NCBI RefSeq assembly: GCF_022808865.1
Contig: NZ_JAKZLB010000002.1
Coordinates: 262,019-326,018 of the forward strand
Reading direction: 5' to 3'
Source: Geothrix oryzisoli
Lineage (GTDB): Bacteria; Acidobacteriota; Holophagae; Holophagales; Holophagaceae
Length of the DNA stretch: 64,000 bases
Part shown: positions 27,913 through 40,256 of the stretch, one piece after another
Position numbering within the stretch: position 1 is the first letter of the stretch
Layout: every line of letters begins with the position of its first letter
Notes under the pieces: generated by a model
The model's input: the letters and a program-made list of their open reading frames with translations, nothing else
Database searches by the model: none
What the model was told of the DNA's origin: nothing
Made by a program: the position numbers and the translations under genes

Positions 27913-28746
27913 TCAGAAGTGGATCTGAAGCTGGGCCATGGGCGCGGTGACGCGCTTGTTGGTGGCGGGAGCGGGGCCGTCGTTGTTCGGGCCGCCGAAC
28001 TTGTTGTTCCAGTACTCGAAGCCGGGGCCCACGTAGACCTTCTTCTTGGTGCCGAAGAGGGGGCTGATGTCGAACATCAGCGTCAAGTTGGCGAGGGTCT
28101 CGGGCTTGGTCTCGATGCCGAAGCCGTCCTTGCCCTTGGCGCCCTCGTAGTTGGCGTAGCCCTTGAACTCGGCGCCCACCTCGCCCATCTGGAAGGGGAT
28201 GCCCCAGGCGGCGGTGAGGTAGTAGGTGGTCTTGAAGTCCACGGACCGGCCCACGATGCCGTTGTAGTTCTGCTCGTGGCAGGCGAGGAGGCCCAGGTCG
28301 AAGAAGCCGGCCGGCACCTTGAAGTTGAAGGTGGGACCGGCGACCAGGAAGCGCTTCTTGGAGGCGAAGGCGTTGTCCTTGGAGTTGAAGTCGAAGCCGG
28401 CGGTGAGGGAGATGTCGCGCACGGGGCCGAAGCCGAGGTCGGTCTTCGTGAGCTTGCCGAGGCTCAGGGAGCCGCGGTAGAGCGCGTAGACCTCGTTGGC
28501 GCCGCTGTTCCCGCTGGCGGTGGGGTCGTTCCGGTCGGACATGAGCATGTCCACGTTGAAGAAGTTCGTGCCGTAGGCCCAGCCGCTGACGTGGCCGAGC
28601 TGGACGATGTTCTTCTTCACGGTGCCGTCGATGCCGGGCTCGCGGAACTGGGTGCCGGTGCGGTAGCCGATGAAGGTGTCGCTCCAGTCGGCGGCGGCGG
28701 CGGGCAGGGCCACCAGGGCCACGAGGGCGAGGGCGAATTTGGACAT
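27913..28746 (-). CDS. Tsx-like nucleoside-specific outer-membrane channel
   Basis: A 277-residue outer-membrane protein with signal peptide MSKFALALVALVALPAAAA and Tsx-family features: DWSDTFIGYRTGTQFREPG, HVSGWAYGTNFFNVDMLMSD, GPVRDISLTAGFDFNSKDN and KKRFLVAGPTFNFKVP. It ends in Phe as barrel proteins do. ATG 28746 gives the signal peptide and has GGAG upstream; an earlier in-frame ATG (28770) adds eight residues. Tsx passes nucleosides through the outer membrane. It is the last gene of a minus-strand set with two nucleobase permeases, so its role in nucleoside or nucleobase uptake is well supported. Confidence 0.85.
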   Translation of the reverse strand: MSKFALALVALVALPAAAADWSDTFIGYRTGTQFREPGIDGTVKKNIVQLGHVSGWAYGTNFFNVDMLMSDRNDPTASGNSGANEVYALYRGSLSLGKLTKTDLGFGPVRDISLTAGFDFNSKDNAFASKKRFLVAGPTFNFKVPAGFFDLGLLACHEQNYNGIVGRSVDFKTTYYLTAAWGIPFQMGEVGAEFKGYANYEGAKGKDGFGIETKPETLANLTLMFDISPLFGTKKKVYVGPGFEYWNNKFGGPNNDGPAPATNKRVTAPMAQLQIHF

Positions 28747-28775
28747 GGAAACTCCGTGGAAGGCAGCCACTGAGG

Positions 28776-30194
28776 CTAGGCGGACAGGAAGAGGAGCTTG
28801 AGCAGGAAGATGGCCGAGAGCACGAGGATGATCGGGTTGATCTCCTTGAAGCGCCCGGTGGCGGCCTTCAGCACGGTGTAGGCGATCATGCCGAGGGCGA
28901 TGCCGTTCACGATGGAGAAGGTGAAGGGCATGACGATGACGGCCAGGTAGGCCGGGATGGCGTCGGTCACGTCGTCGAACTTGATCTCCTTGATCTCCGA
29001 CAGCATGAAGAAGCCGATCATCATGAGCGCCGGGGCCGTGGCCTGGAGCGGCACCATGAGGAAGAGGGGCGAGAGGAAGAGAGCCAGGGCCAGCCAGCCC
29101 GCCACCACCAGGGCCGTGAGGCCCGTCTTGCCGCCCTCGGCCACGCCCGACGCGCTTTCGATGTAGGCGGTGATGGCCGTCGTGCCGAACATGGACGCGA
29201 AGGTGGTGCCCACGGCGTCGGCCATGAAGGCCTTGGACGCGCCGGGGAACTTGCCCTCCTTGTCCAGCAGCTTGCCCTGGGCGCCGATGCCCATGAGCGT
29301 GCCGATGGTGTCGAACATGTCCACGAAGAGCAGGGTGAACAGGATGATGAAGATGTTGATCATGCCGCCCAGGGACTTCGTCCAGGTCCAGTCGTACTGG
29401 AACATCTTCGGCCAGCTGGGAATCTGGAAGAGCGTGCCCTTGGGCAGGTGGGTGAAGCCGCCGCCGAAGCTCACGGGCAGCAGGCCCACCAGGGTGATGG
29501 CGAGGATGCCCAGGAGGATGGCGCCCTTCACGCGCTTGGCCACCAGCACGGCGATGAGGAAGAGGCCCACCACGGACCAGAAGGCGGGGGTGAGGTGGCC
29601 GTGGTCCCAGAACTTCGCGATGAAGAGGTTGTTCACGTCATGCAGGCCGAAGAGGGCCGCGGGGTCGTTCTTCAGGACCGGGAAGATCGTGTCGGGCTCG
29701 AACTTCAGGCCCACCTGGGTCACGCCGGAATCCACGAAGCCGATGATGGCGATGAAGAGGCCGATGCCCACGGAGATGCCCTTCTTCAGCGAGAAGGGGA
29801 TGGCGTCCATGAAGGCCTCCCGCACCTTCATGGCGCTGAGGGCGATGAAGACGAGGCCCTCGAGCAGCAGGGCCGTGAGGGCCACCTGGATGGTGTAGCC
29901 CATGCCGCCCTGGTTGGCCGGGGCACAGACGGTGAATGCGAAGAAGGCCGAGAGGCCGATGCCCGACGCGAAGGCGATGGGCAGGTTCGCGTAGAAGGCG
30001 CCGATGAGGGTCGAGAGGATGGCGCACACCACGAAGGCCGTGAACCCCACATGGGGCGCGATGCCCGCCACCTTGAGGAAGGCGTTGGGGATCAGCGAGA
30101 TCACGTAGGCCATCGAGATGAAGGTGGTGGTGCCCGCAAGCACCTCCGTGGCCACCGTGGTGCCCTTGGCCTTCAGACCAAAAAACCGTTCCAT
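28776..30194 (-). CDS. NCS2 family purine permease (AzgA/GhxP type)
   Basis: A 472-residue inner-membrane proton symporter for hypoxanthine, guanine or adenine. The N-terminus FFGLKAKGTTVATEVLAG and TTTFISMAYVISLIPN match the AzgA group rather than the UraA/UapA group. About 12-14 hydrophobic helices are visible, with FASGIGLSAFFAFTV and SASGVAEGGKTGLTAL as conserved transport segments. A GAGGAG ribosome site precedes the ATG. It lies between the UraA-type permease and the Tsx-like channel. Confidence 0.92.
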   Translation of the reverse strand: MERFFGLKAKGTTVATEVLAGTTTFISMAYVISLIPNAFLKVAGIAPHVGFTAFVVCAILSTLIGAFYANLPIAFASGIGLSAFFAFTVCAPANQGGMGYTIQVALTALLLEGLVFIALSAMKVREAFMDAIPFSLKKGISVGIGLFIAIIGFVDSGVTQVGLKFEPDTIFPVLKNDPAALFGLHDVNNLFIAKFWDHGHLTPAFWSVVGLFLIAVLVAKRVKGAILLGILAITLVGLLPVSFGGGFTHLPKGTLFQIPSWPKMFQYDWTWTKSLGGMINIFIILFTLLFVDMFDTIGTLMGIGAQGKLLDKEGKFPGASKAFMADAVGTTFASMFGTTAITAYIESASGVAEGGKTGLTALVVAGWLALALFLSPLFLMVPLQATAPALMMIGFFMLSEIKEIKFDDVTDAIPAYLAVIVMPFTFSIVNGIALGMIAYTVLKAATGRFKEINPIILVLSAIFLLKLLFLSA

Positions 30195-30222
30195 GCGGTA
30201 CTCCTCGAAAGGGGTGAAGGGA

Positions 30223-31503
30223 TCAGGATTGTGTTTCGGTGTCGTTGCTGAGGCCCAGGTGGTCGAGACCCCAGAAGAGCAGGCTGAGGGCGATGGCCAC
30301 CACCGTGCCTAGGGCCATGCCCTTGAGCTCCACGGTGCCCAGCTTCACGGCCGCACCGCTGATGCCGCTGATGAGCACCACGGAGGTGAGGATCAGGTTG
30401 CGGGACTGGGTGTAGTCCACCTTCTTCTCGATGAGCATGCGGATGCCCGCGGCGGCGATGACGCCGAAGAGCAGGATGCAGACGCCGCCCATGACGGGCA
30501 CGGGGATGCTCCGGATGAGGGCGGCCAGCTTGCCGGAGAAGGACACCAGGATGGCGATGACCGCCGTGCCGCCGATGACCCACACGCTGTAGACCTTGGT
30601 GATGGCCATGACGCCGATGTTCTCGCCGTAGGTGGTGTTGGGCGTGGCCCCGACGAGGCCCGACAGCACGTTGGAGAGGCCGTCGCCCAGCAGCGAGCGG
30701 TGCAGGCCGGGGTCCTTCATCAGGTCCTTGCCCACGATGTTGCCCGTCACCACCAGGTGCCCCACGTGCTCGGCCAGCACCACCAGCGCGGCGGGCAGGA
30801 TGATGAGGATGGCCTGCAGGTTGTAGGTGGGCGCATAGAGGGTGGGCACCTGGAACCAGGGCGCCAGGCGTACGGACTCGAAGTTCACCACGCCGAGGCC
30901 GAGCGAGATCAGGTAGCCCGCGATGACGCCCAGCAGCACGGGGATCACCGCCAGGAACCCGCGCAGGAGGATGGAGGCCAGGATGGTCACCGCCAGGGTG
31001 GACAGCGACACCACCAGGGCCAGGCGCAGCGGCATGCCCAGCACCGCGGGGCCGGCGGTGAGCCCGGCCATGTTGGTGGCCACGGGGGCCAGCTCCAGGC
31101 CGATGATGGCGACGATGGCGCCCATGGCGGCCGGGGGGAAGATGACGTCGATCCACCGGGTGCCCGCAACGCGCACCACCTGGGAGAGCAGCATGAAGAT
31201 GAGGCCGAAGACGATGAAGCCGCCCTGGGCGGCCGAGTAGCTCAGCCCCGCCGCCAGCACGGCGAAGACCGGCGAGAGGAAGGCGAAGCTCGAGCCCAGG
31301 TAGGCGGGGATGCGGCCCTTGGCCACGACCAGGTAGATCAGCGTGCCCACGCCGTTCATCAGCAGGCAGGTCGCGGGATTCACCTTGAAGAGGAAGGGCA
31401 CCAGCACCGTGGCGCCGAACATGGCGAAGAGGTGCTGGAGGCTCAGGGGCGCGGTCTGCAGCAGGGGCAGGCGTTCGTCGACGTCGATGGTGCGGCGCTG
31501 CAT
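30223..31503 (-). CDS. Uracil/xanthine permease family transporter (UraA type)
   Basis: A 426-residue NAT/NCS2 transporter for uracil or xanthine. ATG 31503 gives MQRRTIDVDERLPLLQTAPLSLQHLFAMFG (in part), the usual UraA start; upstream in-frame residues are non-coding in character. The substrate region GLVGATPNTTYGENIGVMAITKVYS and the segment ALVVLAEHVGHLVVTGNI (both shortened) match UraA with the conserved Glu residues. First gene of the permease-permease-channel set. The 200-base upstream spacer is AT-rich at 31640-31660, where the promoter probably lies; no purine riboswitch was seen. Confidence 0.92.
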   Translation of the reverse strand: MQRRTIDVDERLPLLQTAPLSLQHLFAMFGATVLVPFLFKVNPATCLLMNGVGTLIYLVVAKGRIPAYLGSSFAFLSPVFAVLAAGLSYSAAQGGFIVFGLIFMLLSQVVRVAGTRWIDVIFPPAAMGAIVAIIGLELAPVATNMAGLTAGPAVLGMPLRLALVVSLSTLAVTILASILLRGFLAVIPVLLGVIAGYLISLGLGVVNFESVRLAPWFQVPTLYAPTYNLQAILIILPAALVVLAEHVGHLVVTGNIVGKDLMKDPGLHRSLLGDGLSNVLSGLVGATPNTTYGENIGVMAITKVYSVWVIGGTAVIAILVSFSGKLAALIRSIPVPVMGGVCILLFGVIAAAGIRMLIEKKVDYTQSRNLILTSVVLISGISGAAVKLGTVELKGMALGTVVAIALSLLFWGLDHLGLSNDTETQS

Positions 31504-31702
31504 GGGGGCCTCGGCAGGGTGGGTCCCTGCGAGGGCGCAAGAAGGATGCGCCGATCTCCGGGGGCCGGGGAGGGATCCGCCCGGTCCGGAAGCACAAGGA
31601 CAGCTCAATTCTTCCGTGTCCGGGAGTTTGTGCGCATCACATTTTGTTTTTTACAAGGCTCATGGGCCGTGACCGGTGCCCGGTGGAGGGACGCCCGGGG
31701 GC

Positions 31703-33220
31703 CTACCGGGAGCCGCGGCTGCGACCCGCAGGGACCACCCGCTGGACTTTGACCTCTTCCTGGGCCCGCGCGGCCTTCTTCAGGAACTGCTTCGTGGACA
31801 TGAACTCGAGCATGGCTTCGAAGGCATCTGCCGGCAGGGGCCGGCCCAGCAGGAAGCCCTGGAGGCAGTCGCAGCCCAGCAGCTCCAGCATGTCGCGCTG
31901 GCCCTCGGTCTCCACGCCTTCGGCCACCACCGTGAGGTTGAGGCTGTGGGCCAGCTGGATCACCGCCCGCACGATGGCCTCGGAGGAGAGGGCCGGGTCC
32001 TCGGACTGCAGCGCGGCAATGAAGGACTGGTCCAGCTTCAGGGTGGTGATGGGCAGGCGCTGGAGGTAGCCCAGGGAGCTGTAGCCCGTGCCGAAATCGT
32101 CGATGGCGATCCGGGTGCCGATCTCGCGCAGGCGGTGGAGCGGGGCCAGATCCTCATGCCCCTGGCGCATCACCAGGCTTTCGGTGAGCTCCAGCTCCAG
32201 GCAGCCGGGTTCCAGGCCGGTATCCGCCAGGGCCCGCGCCACACAGGTGTCCCAGTCCCCGTTGGCGAACTGGAGGACGGACACGTTCACGGCGAGGAGG
32301 AGCGGGGAGGGGGTGATGGCCTGCCACTTGGCCATCTGGCCGCAGGCCTCGCGGAGGGCCCATTCGCCGATGGGCAGGATGAGGCGGCTCTCCTCGGCCA
32401 GGGGGATGAACTTCACGGGAGGGACCGCGCCGAGGAGGGGGTGGTTCCAGCGCATGAGCGCCTCGGCCCCGGCGAGGCGGCCATCCATGAAGAACTGGGG
32501 CTGGTAGTACATCTGCAGCTCGCCGTTCTGGAGGGCGCTCCGCAGGCAGCTCTCCAGTTCCTGGCGCTCAAGGGAGACCTCGTTGAGCGTGCTGGTGAAG
32601 CACTCGATGCGGTTGCCGCCCCGTTCCCGGGCCCGGCACAGGGCGGACTCCGCGTGGGCCTCCAGCGCATGGGCGTCCATCCCGTCGTTGGGGTAGACGC
32701 AGACGCCGATGCTGGCGGTGAGGTCCAGCTCCCTGGATCCGGCGTGGAAGGGCGTCTGGAGGGCCTCCAGCAGCTTCTGCCCCACCCGGGCGGCGGCCAC
32801 GACGTCCTTGATCTCCTGCAGCAGGACCATGTAGCGGTCACCGCCCATGCAGGCCAGCGTGTCGCCCTCGCGCAGGGTCTCCTTGAGCCGCTGCGCCACC
32901 TGCCTCAGCACCTCGTCGCCGCCCGAATGCCCCAGCAGGTCGTTGACGCGCTTGAAGCGGTCCAGGTCCAGGAAGAGGATGGCGACAATGTGCCCGTGGC
33001 GCTGGGCCATGAGCAGGGCCTGGGACAGCCGGTCCTCGAAATGCCGGTGGTTGGGCAGGCCGGTGACGTTATCCAGCAGGCTCAGTTCCGACACGCGCTG
33101 CTCGAGGGCGCCGATGCGCCGCTCCGCATTGCGGAGACGGCCGATCGCGTCGAGACGGTCGATCTTGAGCATGAAGCCCTTGAGATCCAGACCGTGGGGG
33201 CGCTCGTTCGGCAAATGCAC
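31703..33220 (-). CDS. Degenerate GGDEF plus EAL domain protein (probable c-di-GMP phosphodiesterase)
   Basis: A 505-residue protein. A short N-terminal coiled coil (about 20-45) is followed by a GGDEF domain (DNVTGLPNHRHFEDRL, LFLDLDRFKRVNDLLGHSGGDE) whose catalytic signature reads MGGDRY instead of GGDEF, so it is probably not a cyclase. The EAL domain is complete: GAEALMRWNHP, ELTESLVM, IDDFGTGYSSLGYLQ, KLDQSFI and VVAEGVETEGQ. It should hydrolyse c-di-GMP in the cytoplasm. The start is GTG 33220; ATG 33172 is an alternative. No membrane segment or sensor domain is visible. Confidence 0.9.
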   Translation of the reverse strand: MHLPNERPHGLDLKGFMLKIDRLDAIGRLRNAERRIGALEQRVSELSLLDNVTGLPNHRHFEDRLSQALLMAQRHGHIVAILFLDLDRFKRVNDLLGHSGGDEVLRQVAQRLKETLREGDTLACMGGDRYMVLLQEIKDVVAAARVGQKLLEALQTPFHAGSRELDLTASIGVCVYPNDGMDAHALEAHAESALCRARERGGNRIECFTSTLNEVSLERQELESCLRSALQNGELQMYYQPQFFMDGRLAGAEALMRWNHPLLGAVPPVKFIPLAEESRLILPIGEWALREACGQMAKWQAITPSPLLLAVNVSVLQFANGDWDTCVARALADTGLEPGCLELELTESLVMRQGHEDLAPLHRLREIGTRIAIDDFGTGYSSLGYLQRLPITTLKLDQSFIAALQSEDPALSSEAIVRAVIQLAHSLNLTVVAEGVETEGQRDMLELLGCDCLQGFLLGRPLPADAFEAMLEFMSTKQFLKKAARAQEEVKVQRVVPAGRSRGSR

Positions 33221-33355: not shown

Positions 33356-34834
33356 TCAGGGGCGCCGGGCGCGGACCTCGGCGAGGGCCAGGGCCATGCG
33401 GGCGCACGCCTCATTCTGCTCCTCCACCGAGTGGGCCGCGAAGCCCAGGCAGATGTACGGAAGGGCCCGGCGGTGAAGGTCGTAGAGGCTCCCCGGGTAG
33501 AACACCACCCCATGGGCGAGGCACCGCTCCGTCCAGGCCTCCAGAGGCACGCCGTCGGCCACCCGGACCCAGAGGGACAGGCCTTCCCGTGGGTTCTTCA
33601 CGGAGACGGCGGGGTGCAGGTGGAGGAGCAGGCGATCCACCATGGTCTCCCTCCGCTCATCCGTGAGTTTCCGCACCCGCCGCAGGTGGCGCACGATCTC
33701 GCCATCGCGGAGGGTCTCCTCGATGGTCGCCTCCTGGACGAGGTTCCCGGGCCAGTCGACCAGCTGGCGCTGCTGGGCGAGGGTCTTGATGAGGCCGGCC
33801 TCTCCGGCGAGGAAACCCACCTGGAGGCCGGGGGCGAGGATCTGCTCGAAGCTGCTGAAGTAGAGCACTCGGCCGTGGTGGTCTTCGCTGGCCAGGGGAA
33901 GGCGGGGATTTTTCTCCCGGTGGAAGCCCAGGCTGGGATCGCCCTCCAGGATCCGGAAGCCGTGGGCGACGGACAGCTCCAGCAGGCGCCTGCGGCGGGC
34001 GGGATCCAGGGCCGCCTGGGTCGGGAACTGGGGGCTGGCGGTGAGGTAGAGGAGCCGGATGGGCTCCTGGACGAGCAGGGCCTCCAGCGCCTCCACGTCC
34101 AGCCCCCGGGCATCGACGGGCACGGGGAACAGGCGGGCCCCGGCGGCGCGGAAGGCCTCGGCGACCCGGAACTGCCCCGGATTCTCCATGGCCACGGCAT
34201 CCCCCGGGGCGAAGAGCACGCGGGAGACCAGGTTCAAGGTGCTCATCAGGCCCCGGGTGAGCAGGAGGTTTCCCGCCTCGACCGAGAGCCCCCGCATGTC
34301 CCGGAGCATCTTGCAGAGCGAATTCCGCAGATCGAGGAGCCCCCGGGGATCCCAGCCCGGCTGGAGGAGCCGCTCCGGGTGGAGCCGCAGGACCCGGCCG
34401 TAGGCCCGGTGGATGGCCTCGGTGGGGGCGAGCCTCAGGTCCGGCGTATCCGGGATGAGCTGGAAGGACTCCAGCGCCGGGGCCCCGGGCTGGAAGAAGA
34501 CCTCGTTGGGGGGCGAGGCCCGCTTCCAGGAGGCGGAATCCTGGGCCGAGATGCCCGCGGGGACATCCAGGACGATGGGGAGCCGCCGGGCGACGAAGGT
34601 GCCGCGGTCGGGTGCCACCTCGATCCAGCCCTCGGCCTCCAGCTCCTTGTAGGCGGCCAGAGTGGTGTTCCGGTTGACCCCCAGCAGATCGGCCAGCGCC
34701 CGGGTGCCGGGAAGGGCATCCCCGGGCTTGAACCGCCCGTGACGGATGCCCTCCTCGAGCGCCCCCACCAGCTGGAGGTAGAGGGGCTCCGGATTGGATC
34801 GATCCAGCGCGATGGCGAGATCCCAGCTACCCAA
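33356..34834 (-). CDS. MocR/PdxR-like GntR regulator with aminotransferase-like domain lacking the PLP lysine
   Basis: A 492-residue protein. Residues 10-80 form a GntR winged helix (PLYLQLVGALEEGIRHGRFKPGDALPGTRALADLLGVNR, in part). The rest is a class I aminotransferase-like domain. In MocR proteins the Schiff-base lysine sits in a TFSKTLxPxLRLGY motif; here the segment is SSFEQILAPGLQVGF, with Gln331 in the lysine position. SHQYPTG is also changed (SPQFPTQ). It cannot form the normal internal aldimine. The annotated start is TTG 34834, needed to include the full winged helix. Target and ligand unknown; the barrel and TIGR03118 genes are neighbours. Confidence 0.8.
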   Translation of the reverse strand: MGSWDLAIALDRSNPEPLYLQLVGALEEGIRHGRFKPGDALPGTRALADLLGVNRNTTLAAYKELEAEGWIEVAPDRGTFVARRLPIVLDVPAGISAQDSASWKRASPPNEVFFQPGAPALESFQLIPDTPDLRLAPTEAIHRAYGRVLRLHPERLLQPGWDPRGLLDLRNSLCKMLRDMRGLSVEAGNLLLTRGLMSTLNLVSRVLFAPGDAVAMENPGQFRVAEAFRAAGARLFPVPVDARGLDVEALEALLVQEPIRLLYLTASPQFPTQAALDPARRRRLLELSVAHGFRILEGDPSLGFHREKNPRLPLASEDHHGRVLYFSSFEQILAPGLQVGFLAGEAGLIKTLAQQRQLVDWPGNLVQEATIEETLRDGEIVRHLRRVRKLTDERRETMVDRLLLHLHPAVSVKNPREGLSLWVRVADGVPLEAWTERCLAHGVVFYPGSLYDLHRRALPYICLGFAAHSVEEQNEACARMALALAEVRARRP

Positions 34835-34896
34835 GGAGAGGCTCCCTACTGAGAATCAGCATCCGGAATGGCGTGGGCCGCGTCAAGGCGCGGGGC

Positions 34897-36060
34897 TCAA
34901 TAGCCGTACCCCCCGCCGCCCGTGCCGCCCCCGGTGCCCGCCGAGCCGTAGCTGATGATGCCGAACACCCCGTGCGCCTGCGCCTGGGGGCCCGCCGTCA
35001 CATAGAGCAGGTTGGATTGGCCGGCCGAACCATCGTTGCCGAAGGTCATCCCCCAGAGCCCGCTGAGGGCCAGGGGGGCGCCACTGGGCCCCGAGAGCTG
35101 GCCCAGCTGGGCGCCCGTGGTGGCGTCGAAGGCCGTGATGCGCCCGTCGCCGAAGTTGCCCACGAGGAGGGCCCCGCCGTAGGTGCCGAAGGTGGCCGGC
35201 GCGAGCGCGAGGCCCCACGGCGCGTTGAGCAGGCCGCCGGCGGCCACGCGCCGGACGAAGGTGCCGTCGAGGTTGAAGACGTCCAGGACGCCGAGTCCCG
35301 CCCCCGTCGTTTCGCGCATGGCGGGCGGATCATGCTTGGCATAGGCCACGTAGAGCTTGCCGGCCAGCACCTGGACGTTGAATGGGGCGTAGCCGGCCGG
35401 GAGGGCCGGATCCACCCACGCCGCGGCCCCGAGGTTGACCGGAGCGTAGGAGGAGTCGAAGACCTCGATCGCGCCCCCGTTGAAGTTCGCGGCGAACAGG
35501 TAGGTGGCGGTTCCGTTGGTGCCGATGGCAAGCCCCGTGTAGACGGCCGCGCTGCCGGAGTGGTCCACGCGGCGGACCGCGGTCGCACCTGCGCTCCACC
35601 CGCTGAGGCTCCCATCCAGGGAGGCCAGGATGAAGGTATCGCCGGCAAACCCTGTGGTCCCGCTGAAGACGATGCCTGTGGGGCCGCCGAGCGCGGCTCC
35701 GGTCACGGGGGGATCGGAGACCACCAGGGGCGTGGTCAAGGGATGGCCCAGCCCGTCATACACGGTGGTCGTGGCCGTCCCCTGGTCGGCCACCCAGAAA
35801 CGGGTGGTCGGCCCATAGGCCAGCCCCCAGGGGTTCACCAGGTTGGGATCCACCGTGGTGGCCCCCGCACTGGCCTGATCGGCGACCAGCGCGGTCCATT
35901 GGTAGGTTGGCGGGGCGGCGGGCATGGAGGAGCCGCCGCCAGAGCCGCCACCGCAGGCGGCCAGGCCCACCAGCAAGGATGCGGCACCCGCGAGGAAGAG
36001 CGGGCGGCGGCTCTGGCGCACCGAGGCGCATCGGGTGGATTCAGGAAGGGGTTGGAGCAT
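34897..36060 (-). CDS. TIGR03118 family lipoprotein, NHL-like propeller
   Basis: A 387-residue exported protein. After a basic N-terminus, a hydrophobic leader ends in a lipobox (LLVGLAAC) and a Gly/Ser linker follows. The body matches the TIGR03118 family: NLVNPWGLAYGPTTRFWVADQG, GGPTGIVFSGTTGF, LFAANFNGGAIEVFDSSY and GLLNAPWGLALAPATFG (given in part), repeated strands suggesting a beta propeller. It ends in a Gly/Tyr-rich tail. The function of the family is not established. Divergent from the barrel gene at 36278. Confidence 0.82.
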   Translation of the reverse strand: MLQPLPESTRCASVRQSRRPLFLAGAASLLVGLAACGGGSGGGSSMPAAPPTYQWTALVADQASAGATTVDPNLVNPWGLAYGPTTRFWVADQGTATTTVYDGLGHPLTTPLVVSDPPVTGAALGGPTGIVFSGTTGFAGDTFILASLDGSLSGWSAGATAVRRVDHSGSAAVYTGLAIGTNGTATYLFAANFNGGAIEVFDSSYAPVNLGAAAWVDPALPAGYAPFNVQVLAGKLYVAYAKHDPPAMRETTGAGLGVLDVFNLDGTFVRRVAAGGLLNAPWGLALAPATFGTYGGALLVGNFGDGRITAFDATTGAQLGQLSGPSGAPLALSGLWGMTFGNDGSAGQSNLLYVTAGPQAQAHGVFGIISYGSAGTGGGTGGGGYGY

Positions 36061-36277
36061 GGGAACCTCCAGCTCGCTGGCGCGAGCGAAATCCGGGACG
36101 GAGCGGGTTCCGGGGTGGGGGAACGCGGGGCGAAGGCCGGTCTGTCCAGCTTCGGGCGGGAGGCGTCCGACACCAGATCCGGTTCGGAGATGGGGAGCCC
36201 TCCGGTGCCCAGAGATCGTTGGCCGGCGCGAGAACGGTGGGATACCATCCTCGGGATCCGCAGGCTCCCGGAGGGTG

Positions 36278-37345: not shown

Positions 37346-38038
37346 TCAGTAGTTCCGCTCGTCGGCCGGGGGCGGGTAGTCCCTTCCGAACTTGTTCTTG
37401 TGAGGCTCGAGGGCCGGCAGGGAGAGGTCCAGGTTCCAGGTGCCCGTGGTGACGCCCGCGCCGACATTCAGGGTCCAGGCCTTCTCCCCGGCTTCCGGAT
37501 GCCAGAGGACGAGCCGGTAGGTGCCCGGGGGGACCTGGTCGAACGCCACGCCGGTCCGGCCGTCGAGCAGCTCCGCGAAGGGGGTCGTCACCACCCACAG
37601 GAAGGCGTTCATCTGGTGGTGGATGTTGCAGTAGAGCTTCACCAGCCCGGCATGGGCCACCTTCACCCGGGGAGCGTCGCCGGGCTGGTACTGGCCGGTG
37701 TCGAACCGGTTGCCCTGGGTCACGCTGAACACGTTGTGGACGAGGTGGTCCAGGTTGGGGAAGGCCACCTCCGTTCCCGGCGTGGCGATGGAGACGCGGG
37801 GCAGGAACTGCTTTCCGACCGTGCGGATGGAGACGGGCTTCGAGGGGCCCACGGCCGGGACGACGGCATCGAGGGGCTCGAGGATGGCCACGCAGTCCTT
37901 CAGCGAGGCCCGGATCCGGCCATCCTTCTCCCGGAGGCGCACGGTCCCCCGAACGCTTCCCGCCTGCGCCGGCAGGGCCGCGGCCAAGGTGGCGACCAGG
38001 GCGACGACCGGCAGACCGCGTGCAATCGCTCGAATCAT
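37346..38038 (-). CDS. Periplasmic cupredoxin-like protein (methylamine-utilisation type)
   Basis: A 230-residue exported protein with signal peptide MIRAIARGLPVVALVATLAA. The middle resembles plastocyanin/cupredoxin: FPNLDHLVHNVFSV supplies the first His, and KLYCNIHHQMNAFLWV the Cys, His and possibly Met copper ligands. A C-terminal FDQVPPGTYRLVLWHPEAG strand pair looks like a carboxypeptidase-regulatory or transthyretin-like fold. It is likely a periplasmic copper electron carrier. A good -10 box TATACT (38067-38072, minus) lies in the 55-base spacer shared with the divergent kinase gene. Confidence 0.8.
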   Translation of the reverse strand: MIRAIARGLPVVALVATLAAALPAQAGSVRGTVRLREKDGRIRASLKDCVAILEPLDAVVPAVGPSKPVSIRTVGKQFLPRVSIATPGTEVAFPNLDHLVHNVFSVTQGNRFDTGQYQPGDAPRVKVAHAGLVKLYCNIHHQMNAFLWVVTTPFAELLDGRTGVAFDQVPPGTYRLVLWHPEAGEKAWTLNVGAGVTTGTWNLDLSLPALEPHKNKFGRDYPPPADERNY

Positions 38039-38066
38039 GCTTGGCTTCCGGGGTAGATTCGTGGCC

Positions 38067-38072
38067 AGTATA
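38067..38072 (-). promoter_or_regulatory. Predicted -10 box of the cupredoxin gene
   Basis: TATACT on the minus strand, 28 bases before ATG 38038, in the divergent spacer with the kinase gene. Confidence 0.5.
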
Positions 38073-38093
38073 CCGGTGGATGAGGGAAGGCCC

Positions 38094-40256
38094 ATGCAGC
38101 CAACCATGAGGTGGTACCAGACCCTGGCCTGGACCCTGTTCATCCGCCAGGCGGCGGCCGTGCTGGGGATCCTTGCCGTGATCCTGTGGGTGGCCTACAG
38201 CGAGGCCGAGCGGGGGGCCCGGGCCACGGCGGCCACGAGCCTCTCTGCCGGCGGGTATGTCCTCGAGCGGGCCTTCGAGCAGCAGGGCCATTCCCTGGAT
38301 GCGGGCCTGGATGTCTTCACCCAGTACTCCGGGAACGTCGCGCTCGTGGAGCAGACCCTCGAGTCGGGCGCCGCCTCCAGCCTCACCGACACCCTGGTCG
38401 ACAACCTCCCCCGGCTGAACGCGGAGATCGCGCTCGTGGTGAAGCCGGACGGGTCGCTCCTGGCCTCCAGCGCCAAGGGTGCCGGGCCGGCGTTCCTCGA
38501 CGTGGGGATCCTGCAGATGGCGCTGGCGCCAGAAGATGCCCAGGTCGCGGGCCACCCGGGCCCCTCGTACCGGGGCTTCCTCCGGGTGAACTGGGGGGAC
38601 CGTCCCGGGGTGTACCACGCCGTGGCCCGGCCCCTGCGGTCGCCGGGGGGCCGACCATTGGGGGCCATGCTCGTGGGGGTGCGGGTGGACGATCGCGCGG
38701 CCACGGACCTCCGGAGGCTGGCTGTCGCCGGGCCCCAGCGTGACGATCCCTCCCCCCACCTGGCGCTGCTGAGCCAGTTCCAGACCCTGGGCGCCACCCT
38801 TCCGGAGGCGGACGCCCTCGACCGCCTGCTGGCCCGGGATCCGGCCCTCCTCGCGGTCCGCTACCGCGTGCTCGACGGCCAGCGTTCCCCCGTCGTGCCC
38901 TTCCGCGTGGGCGGCCTGACCTACCTGGGGATGATCTCCCCGCTCCGGGGCGTGAACGCGCTGGACCTGCAGATGGCCGACGTGCTGCTGATGCCCGTGG
39001 ACCCGCTGTTGGCACCCTTCCGCAACCTGCAGCGGGCCATCCTGGCCGTGGGTGCGGCCGGCCTGCTCGCGGCCCTGGCCCTCAGCCTCCGGTCCGCCCG
39101 GAAGGTGACGGCCCCGCTCAAGACCCTCGCGGATGCCGCGGAAGCCCTGGCCGGAGGGGATCGGCCCGAGACCCTGGCCCTCGTGCCGTCCCAGGACGAG
39201 GTGGGAGTGCTGGCCCGCATCTTCAAATCCATGCTGGCCGAGCTGCGGGCCAAGGATGATCTGTTGGCCCTGCTCGAGGGCCTTCACCGGAGTCCCGGCG
39301 GGGCGGCCGCGGGCCCCGGCCCCAAGGACGTCCCGGGGGTCCTGTCGCCTCCGGACGACGCCACCCGGCGCCTCGACCCGGCGGCTCCGCGGCGGGAGGA
39401 GGACCCCCTGCCGTCCACCCTCCAGGAGGGCAGGGTCTTCGCCGCCCGCTATCGGGTGGAGGGGGTGCTGGGACGCGGCGGGATGGGCGTCGTCCTGAAG
39501 GTCCGGGACCTGCAACTGGACGAAGAGGTCGCCCTGAAGGTCATCCGCGCGGGCCTGGCCTCGAATCCGGACTTCCTGGCCCTCCTCAAGCAGGAGATCC
39601 GCCTGGCCCGGAGGATCACCCACCGGTACGTGCTCAGGACCCACGATTTCGGGGAGTTCGATGGCATCCCCTACGTGACGATGGAGTACCTGAAGGGCAT
39701 CACCCTCCGGAGCCTGCTGGACGGCCGGGGGCGCCTGCCCCTCCCGCTCGTGCTGCGCATCGCCCGGCAGGTGGCCGAGGGTCTGGAGGCGGCCCACGCG
39801 GTCGGCGTGGTCCACCGGGACATCAAGCCCGCGAACGTCCTGTTCGATGTGCGCGGCGACGCCAAGATCATGGACTTCGGCCTCGCCGCTCCCGCCACCA
39901 CGGTGGGGCAGGCGGGCCTCCTCCTGGGCTCCCCCCGGTACATGGCGCCGGAGCAGATCCGGGGCGAGGGCGTGGATGCGCGGACCGACCTGTACTCCCT
40001 GGGCGTGATGCTGTTCGAGCTGTGCTCCGGTGTTCCGCCCTTCGACAGTCCCCGCATCGACGACCTCCTGGCCCTGCACCTCGAGGCGCGGCCGCCGGCC
40101 CTGGCCGCCCTGGTGCCGGACCTCCCCGCGGATGTGGGGGCCCTGGTGGGCCGGCTGCTGGAGAAGCGCCCCGACCACCGCCCGCAAACCGCCGCCGAGG
40201 TGTCCGAGATCCTGAAAATCCTCGCGACGGCGGGCGGGGAGAGCTCGCGGGTGTAA
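38094..40256 (+). CDS. Membrane Ser/Thr protein kinase with N-terminal extracytoplasmic sensor and HAMP
   Basis: A 720-residue fusion. Transmembrane helix 1 (about 15-33), a periplasmic sensor region (34-315, dCache/CHASE-like: LVVKPDGSLLASSAKG, YHAVARPLRSPGG), transmembrane helix 2 (about 316-336) and a HAMP-like segment (about 338-390). A Pro/Gly-rich linker leads to a Hanks-type kinase domain (about 450-715): GRGGMGVV, ALKVI (Lys482), HRDIKPANV (Asp575) and DFGLA (Asp594), all catalytic residues intact. The sensor sits in front, as in histidine kinases; most bacterial STPKs have the kinase first. It is divergent from the cupredoxin gene, which may be linked in function. Confidence 0.9.
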   Translation: MQPTMRWYQTLAWTLFIRQAAAVLGILAVILWVAYSEAERGARATAATSLSAGGYVLERAFEQQGHSLDAGLDVFTQYSGNVALVEQTLESGAASSLTDTLVDNLPRLNAEIALVVKPDGSLLASSAKGAGPAFLDVGILQMALAPEDAQVAGHPGPSYRGFLRVNWGDRPGVYHAVARPLRSPGGRPLGAMLVGVRVDDRAATDLRRLAVAGPQRDDPSPHLALLSQFQTLGATLPEADALDRLLARDPALLAVRYRVLDGQRSPVVPFRVGGLTYLGMISPLRGVNALDLQMADVLLMPVDPLLAPFRNLQRAILAVGAAGLLAALALSLRSARKVTAPLKTLADAAEALAGGDRPETLALVPSQDEVGVLARIFKSMLAELRAKDDLLALLEGLHRSPGGAAAGPGPKDVPGVLSPPDDATRRLDPAAPRREEDPLPSTLQEGRVFAARYRVEGVLGRGGMGVVLKVRDLQLDEEVALKVIRAGLASNPDFLALLKQEIRLARRITHRYVLRTHDFGEFDGIPYVTMEYLKGITLRSLLDGRGRLPLPLVLRIARQVAEGLEAAHAVGVVHRDIKPANVLFDVRGDAKIMDFGLAAPATTVGQAGLLLGSPRYMAPEQIRGEGVDARTDLYSLGVMLFELCSGVPPFDSPRIDDLLALHLEARPPALAALVPDLPADVGALVGRLLEKRPDHRPQTAAEVSEILKILATAGGESSRV

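Follow-up and report, generated by a model that had tools for sequence, protein, structure and literature searches.

The window, i.e. the whole stretch of 64 000 nucleotides that was analysed (G000:C2:262019-326018), belongs to the 3.23-Mb genome of Geothrix oryzisoli and carries a gene for a MocR-like transcriptional regulator that has no lysine at the position used for binding pyridoxal phosphate (PLP). The closest named relatives, among loci of another collection, are Geothrix rubra (94% protein identity) and other Geothrix/Holophagaceae. The features of the locus are collected in Table 1. On one side, a GGDEF-EAL gene (31703-33220) separates the regulator gene from a cluster (27913-31608) that encodes two purine/uracil permeases of the NCS2 type and a channel with a weak resemblance to Tsx, below the Pfam cutoff. 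On the other side lie a gene of the TIGR03118 family and a gene for a porin-like outer-membrane protein, the latter adjoined by a cupredoxin-like gene (37346-38143, assigned by eye and without a Pfam match) and accompanied by a HAMP and Ser/Thr kinase gene (38097-40256), the starts of both being uncertain. The TIGR03118 gene sits between the regulator and porin-like genes in some genomes only, no TIGR03118 match is found beside the regulator in, for example, L007, L018 and L023, and this gene is not a required part of the arrangement.

Table 1. Features of the regulator and porin-like loci, in window coordinates
Feature	Position	Strand	Basis or remark
MocR-like regulator gene lacking the PLP lysine	33356..34834	-	ORF of 492 aa, TTG start; Pfam GntR and Aminotran_1_2
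Winged helix-turn-helix, residues 18-81	34592..34783	-	PF00392, E 1.5e-16, 60.2 bits
Aminotransferase-like domain without PLP site, residues 126-485	33380..34459	-	aligned to solved fold-type-I proteins
Cys462 codon, place of the carboxylate Arg (GabR Arg430 by motif)	33449..33451	-	Cys 32, Ser 9 in 41 rows
Gln338 codon, place of the presumed phosphate-binding Arg (GabR Arg319 by motif)	33821..33823	-	Gln in 41/41 genomes and 41/41 rows
Gln331 codon, place of the PLP lysine (GabR Lys312)	33842..33844	-	Gln in 40/41 genomes, Pro in 1/41 (G150)
Gly298 codon, place of the pyridine-N Asp (GabR Asp279 by motif)	33941..33943	-	Gly 34, Leu 5, Ala 2 in 41 rows
Promoter-like pair of the regulator gene: TTGACG (34881-34886), 17 nt, GATGCT (34858-34863)	34858..34886	-	by eye
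TIGR03118 family protein, start uncertain	34897..36000	-	337 bits, cutoff 80
Putative operator ATCCGGT-N17-TCCGGT, direct repeat with a period of 23 nt	36177..36206	+	before the porin-like gene
Probable -10 box TACCAT of the porin-like gene	36243..36248	+	conserved block GGcTAcCATCC, by eye; downstream of the repeat
Porin-like outer-membrane beta-barrel, putative target, 352 aa	36278..37336	+	own protein without Pfam match

Architecture of the regulator

By architecture, the protein is a MocR regulator; judged by its sequence, it lacks both of the features tested for a PLP-dependent member. The core of its winged helix-turn-helix (wHTH) contains many residues that are invariant in 41 orthologue rows, i.e. 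distinct orthologues of 60-100% identity taken from the window, from loci of another collection and from genome loci, with identical rows merged. The C-terminal domain shows homology to fold-type-I aminotransferases from end to end: the Aminotran_1_2 match covers residues 162-479 (52.5 bits), residues 126-484 align to 1x0m (best E 8.3e-45), and residues 9-480 align to 7pq9, presumably the PdxR of B. clausii. The best NCBIfam model is PdxR (NF052282), matched over its full length with 283.1 bits (E 4.5e-84), a score that does not reach the equivalog cutoff of 320 bits. The AlphaFold model of the regulator, for which the input alignment comprised 24 close sequences, is poor (mean pLDDT 46.6); the pocket was assessed through alignment alone. 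A scan of viral contigs for further relatives gave one short match.

The TTG start codon is preceded by GGAG (34842-34845) and, further upstream, by the promoter-like pair, whose TTGAC is found in 25/25 upstream regions of regulator genes. A scan for sigma-70 promoters and terminators returned 0 sites, this pair included.

The PLP site and the clade that has lost its lysine

According to the available passages of a classification paper, Lys312 and Asp279 of GabR are conserved across all MocR clusters (PMC6677901), and both have equivalents in YczR, as stated in part of another source (PMC4944035); a third one, in the passages at hand, speaks of 'many members' that carry PLP residues (PMC8067088). 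The mapping used here combines the roles given for GabR Lys312, Asp279, Tyr281, Arg207 and Arg430 in the passages of PMC6677901 with motif spacing. The original prediction held that the PLP lysine is replaced by Gln331 and that the 'SHQ' motif is changed, and both changes are borne out. In YFSSFEQILAPGLQVGF, Gln331 occupies the PLP-lysine position and is aligned by HMMER, without gaps, to the F-S-K lysine of 1x0m, 3aov, 1wst, 7pq9 and 2egy; the gap-free alignment of SSFEQILAPGLQVGF to the F-S-K motif of these five solved proteins rules out a misaligned lysine. Chance or sequencing error is likewise ruled out by the 24/24 Geothrix/Holophagaceae loci of the other collection, from independent assemblies, that have Gln. 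The 'SHQ' motif reads ASPQFPTQ, versus PHHQFPTT in a paralogue of the same genome (L002), and the EDDYD motif is present in Lys paralogues such as L002. An orthologue (61% identity or more) occurs in 41 of the 77 family genomes and never has Lys at position 331, where an internal aldimine is therefore impossible, as had been claimed; Gln331 does mark the clade. Another active-site lysine and close homologues with Lys were also sought. The active-site motif holds no other Lys, and no homologue with Lys is nearer than 46% identity, all further homologues found being at 46% identity or less. The only Lys invariant in the 41 rows is K350, 19 residues past Gln331, a position mostly occupied by E, R, Q or D in paralogues; covalent binding of PLP via a shifted lysine was considered and, on this alignment evidence, rejected.

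The loss of the lysine had thus been recognized correctly, but its extent was understated, since most other PLP contacts are replaced too (Table 1). The phosphate loop GSQ has become GLM (Leu196 in 40/41 and Met197 in 41/41 rows), and position 300 of the ring Tyr is Pro in 25 rows, Leu in 13, and Ala, Ser or Phe in one row each. The residue before the lysine position is Glu in 35 and Asp in 6 of the 41 orthologue rows; it is Ser in 24/24 paralogue rows, where the carboxylate Arg is kept (24/24) and the PLP position is Lys in 22 and Arg in 2. At the stacking position 221, Tyr is found in 4 and Phe or Trp in 11 of the 41 rows, and this is the most variable of the 16 site positions. Some residues are fixed, namely Gln338, Arg223, Cys438 and Cys477 (41/41 rows) and, with one exception, Gln331 (40/41); Asp299 is invariant as well. 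Taken as a whole, the 16 positions of the old cofactor site do not stand out from the rest of the domain in their conservation, 0.62 of random domain sets being equally conserved in the 41 orthologue rows and 0.45 in a diverse subset of 18 orthologues. The same site is strongly conserved in 20 Lys paralogue rows (0.0027 of random sets), from which L003, L084 and the two K-to-R rows were left out, and in the 13 of these rows with EDDY its conservation is matched by 0.0000 of 20 000 random sets. The cofactor constraint on the orthologues therefore appears to be gone, with single residues fixed or nearly so (Gln331, Gln338, Arg223 and Met197).

These replacements bear on the idea, raised in the original prediction, that PLP is bound non-covalently. 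The regulator would then hold PLP, PMP or another B6 vitamer and act as an ordinary B6-responsive MocR, in keeping with its overall MocR/PdxR-like sequence (283 bits with the PdxR model), with the invariant Asp299 and Arg223, and with the rows that retain Tyr, Phe or Trp at the stacking position. This is very improbable because the phosphate Arg (Gln in 41/41), the pyridine Asp (Gly, Leu or Ala), the ring Tyr (Pro, Leu or others), the phosphate loop and the carboxylate Arg are also replaced. The variability of the stacking position and the lack of excess conservation across the site speak against it too, as do the genes matched to the repeat sites described below, which belong to the envelope and to redox functions rather than to B6 or amine metabolism (with the exception of L151 and its aminotransferase/MocR-like gene). 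Among the three options originally put forward, i.e. another ligand, non-covalent PLP or action without a cofactor, the last fits best.

The fixed residues Gln331, Gln338, Arg223, Cys438 and Cys477 suggest that the emptied pocket may have a new use, and it may hold another ligand. Four residues, Cys438, Cys477, His142 and His468, are shared by all 41 orthologue rows and hardly occur, if at all, among the 24 paralogue rows. Whether the pocket and this clade-specific Cys/His set, together with the Cys/Ser that replaces the carboxylate Arg, form a new sensor of redox state, of a metal such as copper or of a non-amine ligand is doubtful; several genes linked to the regulator or to the repeat do encode redox proteins.

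In a tree of 46 rows, where the 27 rows with identity above 84% were represented by 8, the group without Lys is monophyletic (100/100) on a long stem of 1.09 changes per column. The minimum number of changes between Lys and no Lys on this tree is 2, one for this clade and a separate one, Lys to Arg, for paralogues of genus g2. The latter (L057:1489-2928 in G097 and L090:510-1949 in G428) read SLSRLLAPG and SLSRLIAPG, with a shortened EDDYD, and their change is independent on the tree. Other paralogues (L053, L055, L056, L085, L086, L087 and L088) keep Lys without the usual EDDYD, having ELDQDSEF, ENDQDSEF or similar; alteration of the PLP site may thus extend further through the family. A paralogue of 42-44% identity lies ~12-24 kb from the gene without Lys in G142, G158, G166, G133 and G124, its Lys being read for G124 (L077) only, and is perhaps an old local duplication.

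With so many functional residues lost, the gene might be a decaying pseudogene with an eroding active site. This explanation deserves hardly any weight and is refuted by the selection test. When codons were compared among the 27 rows with identity above 84%, i.e. close orthologues, the median dN/dS was 0.13 for the whole gene (351 pairs), 0.10 for the wHTH (350 pairs), 0.12 for the aminotransferase-like domain (351 pairs) and 0.20 for the linker. The orthologue match is stop-free in 40/41 genomes, the exception being G426, with one TGA in the stretch and an open frame of 507 aa, and 168 of the 492 residues are invariant in 41 rows. On this measure, purifying selection acts on the wHTH as well as on the aminotransferase-like domain.

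The porin-like gene and the direct repeat

The porin-like gene is present in 40/41 genomes with the regulator and in 0/36 without it among the 77 family genomes, a comparison that ignores kinship and in which the two genes adjoin in most of the genomes concerned; the sole regulator genome without it is G420, which is 76% complete. The two genes still co-occur when the porin-like gene lies on a different contig (G150, G106, G418, G300, G340, G419 and G347, from three genera), these unlinked homologues being only 35-47% identical. In a profile search of a phylum sample, the gene was found in 25 of 396 genomes, i.e. in all 23 regulator genomes and, as partial weak matches, in 2 others. The regulator gene is divergent from the porin-like gene in most Geothrix loci examined and converges with it in L092-L094. 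AlphaFold predicts a 16-strand barrel (mean pLDDT 70.2, pTM 0.71), whose best structural match is the porin OmpM1 (VIA Z 18.4, rmsd 4.2 over 270 residues); Porin_5 (PF16930) is matched in 3/21 homologues (best E 0.0011), and a PDB profile search with the protein gave a best E of 0.097. The product is predicted to be a 16-stranded, porin-like outer-membrane barrel.

Upstream of this gene lies a direct repeat that is a candidate operator. The copy at 36177-36206 is the sole exact one in the 3.23-Mb genome, and 0.09 copies with up to one mismatch are expected by chance in the window. Among 40 distinct upstream regions of porin-like genes, the repeat is exact in 23, has one mismatch in 2 (L039 and L121) and has no good copy in 15. 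The last group comprises four regions adjacent to the regulator (L030, L043, L059 and L069, from G065, G390, G404 and G406), three of the G053/G027/G397 subclade, and eight unlinked porin genes from seven genomes (two copies in G419). Within one mismatch, the repeat is also found ahead of the regulator gene itself, with its end 48-88 nt from the start codon, in L095, L097, L099, L100, L101 and L102, which belong to genera g3, g4 and g8; a TTGAC box follows 12-13 nt past it in 3/6 of these deep loci. No repeat was found before the regulator gene in L092-L094 and L096.

A refined pattern, RTCCGGT-N14-CCMTCCGG, was counted in the 77 family genomes. It gives 80 sites in the 41 regulator genomes (36 with at least one) versus 7 sites in the 36 genomes without the regulator (6 with at least one), so that a genome with the regulator has on average ~10 times as many sites as one without; the reversed-pattern control gives 6 sites with and 6 without. 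The association of site presence with the regulator (Fisher 1.6e-10) is not corrected for kinship, and the pattern was built from sites of regulator genomes, which favours those somewhat, the repeat having first been seen in porin promoters alone. Within the genus, the counts are 57 sites in 30 regulator genomes (26 with at least one) versus 4 sites in 17 without. An exact match to the refined pattern is missing from five of the 41 regulator genomes (G166, G397, G027, G053 and G418). For the genome of the window, a large regulon was rejected: there is one exact site, and looser matches show no clear enrichment, the refined pattern at one mismatch giving 11 matches versus 7 for the reversed control, and the first pattern at two mismatches 101 versus 235.

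The repeat might belong to another transcription factor co-inherited with the regulator, and 17/40 upstream regions of porin-like genes do lack an exact repeat despite the presence of the regulator. This is improbable given the roughly tenfold higher frequency of sites in genomes with the regulator and the sites that, in three other genera, immediately precede the regulator gene. The architecture of the repeat also fits that of MocR operators, in which, according to the passages at hand of a published account, direct repeats are frequent and lie two or three helical turns apart in characterized cases (PMC5320631).

Thirty of the 87 refined sites were taken as loci (L133-L162), 26 from regulator genomes and 4 from genomes without. 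Pfam was run on the genes of L148, L149, L151, L155, L156 and L157, the others being assigned by eye or by similarity to these or to further reference genes. Fourteen of the 26 sites from regulator genomes are porin promoters. Elsewhere the site is adjoined by a Rieske gene (L143, L150, L157 and L158), a CHRD gene (L134), DUF5777/DUF2231 genes (L144, L148 and L149), a DUF5666 gene (L156) or a multicopper-oxidase-like gene (L151, L155 and L159). The multicopper-oxidase match reaches 25.0 bits in L151 (cutoff 21) and 20.3 bits, below the cutoff, in L155. On the other side of the site lie the aminotransferase/MocR-like gene in L151 and a gene for a 4Fe-4S protein in L155 and L159. Of the 7 sites in genomes without the regulator, the four taken as loci (L141, L146, L153 and L161) fall within predicted ORFs and resemble none of the reference genes. 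Cupredoxin genes occur near the site in L098 and, ~0.9 kb away from it, in L101, and a Rieske gene occurs near it in L102. A copy of the repeat lies beyond the HAMP/kinase gene in L134, L143, L150, L157 and L158. Among 10 one-mismatch matches in the genome of the window, C4:227586 alone was inspected (intergenic in L132 and L171). It is flanked on one side by a DUF2231-like gene and on the other by a Rieske-like gene, the latter followed by a DUF5777-like barrel gene. In L132:1496-3607 (G000:C4), where genes were assigned by similarity to L148 and L157, the Rieske-like gene encodes a lipoprotein, the DUF2231-like gene is divergent, and this one-mismatch candidate operator stands between them. 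A literature search on Rieske, DUF5777, DUF2231 and CHRD yielded nothing relevant.

Proposed mechanism and known systems

The sequence evidence points, with good probability, to a PLP-free regulator derived from MocR, probably an activator, of the porin and of envelope redox genes. The protein would remain a dimer through its aminotransferase-like domain, locked in a state like that of apo-PdxR, and would bind the repeat just upstream of the porin-like gene promoter. It would also bind near Rieske, cupredoxin, multicopper-oxidase-like and beta-barrel envelope genes, switching them on, and in distant orthologues before its own gene too. By analogy, a fixed, activating regulator of the apo-PdxR type would be the simplest mechanism.

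Activation is read from the position of the repeat alone. An activator is favoured because such proteins more commonly bind where the repeat is found, ahead of the probable -10/-35 region of the porin-like gene. The sign of regulation could go either way since EnuR Lys302His, a PLP-free laboratory mutant without the lysine, stays dimeric and is a constitutive repressor, according to passages of its description (PMC8739950). The regulator could likewise be a locked, signal-free repressor that binds the repeat and represses the porin-like gene and other targets, a reading of low though appreciable probability. The half-site-like ACCGGAT, with up to one mismatch, occurs in 16/25 promoter regions of regulator genes versus 4.5 expected, mostly near the -10 box, and is compatible with autorepression, the count being weak since the shuffles preserve single-base content only, the regions are of common descent and the half-site coincides in part with the -10 box. 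Repression fits less well with the place of the repeat, upstream of the porin promoter region and, in 3/6 deep loci, upstream of the TTGAC box before the regulator gene.

Among known systems, PdxR is the best full-length NCBIfam match of the regulator, and apo-PdxR, in the passages available, binds its operator with a preference for direct repeats and activates without PLP (PMC5320631). Unlike PdxR, the regulator stays below the equivalog cutoff of 320, is without the PLP lysine and nearly all PLP contacts, and is linked to envelope and redox genes instead of pdxST. With GabR of B. subtilis it shares the wHTH and fold-type-I domains, the orientation divergent from a presumed target, and Arg207, kept as Arg223; it differs in replacing the positions of Lys312, Asp279, Tyr281, Arg319 and Arg430. 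EnuR Lys302His resembles it in being a MocR protein unable to take up PLP, and in remaining dimeric as reported in part of the source (PMC8739950). However, that mutant is man-made and dead for induction, whereas the loss described here arose in nature, runs through the whole clade and is selected. Natural loss of the PLP lysine is also on record, in the passages at hand, for fold-type-I domains embedded in NRPS/PKS, with Thr or Val in a few single sequences, but these are not transcription factors and keep the pyridine Asp (PMC3870968). The K-to-R paralogues of genus g2 are a second MocR-like branch of the family without the lysine, but on a separate branch of the tree and with the phosphate Arg kept. 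In the open-access literature, as covered by titles, starts of abstracts and passages, no natural MocR branch without the lysine was found; nor was any open-access paper on both Geothrix and MocR.

MocR proteins have been described as PLP-dependent regulators, and the existence of a natural, selected and apparently PLP-free clade, accompanied by a candidate operator, points to a possible retention of the aminotransferase fold as a regulatory scaffold without its cofactor. The clade offers a clean system for asking what an aminotransferase-like domain does in transcription without chemistry, and the genes for the porin, Rieske, cupredoxin and multicopper-oxidase-like proteins of Geothrix and its relatives constitute a named, testable set. 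Should the pocket prove to be a new sensor, a MocR regulator would have been rewired from the sensing of B6 and amines to the electron-transfer and pore inventory of the cell envelope in Holophagaceae.
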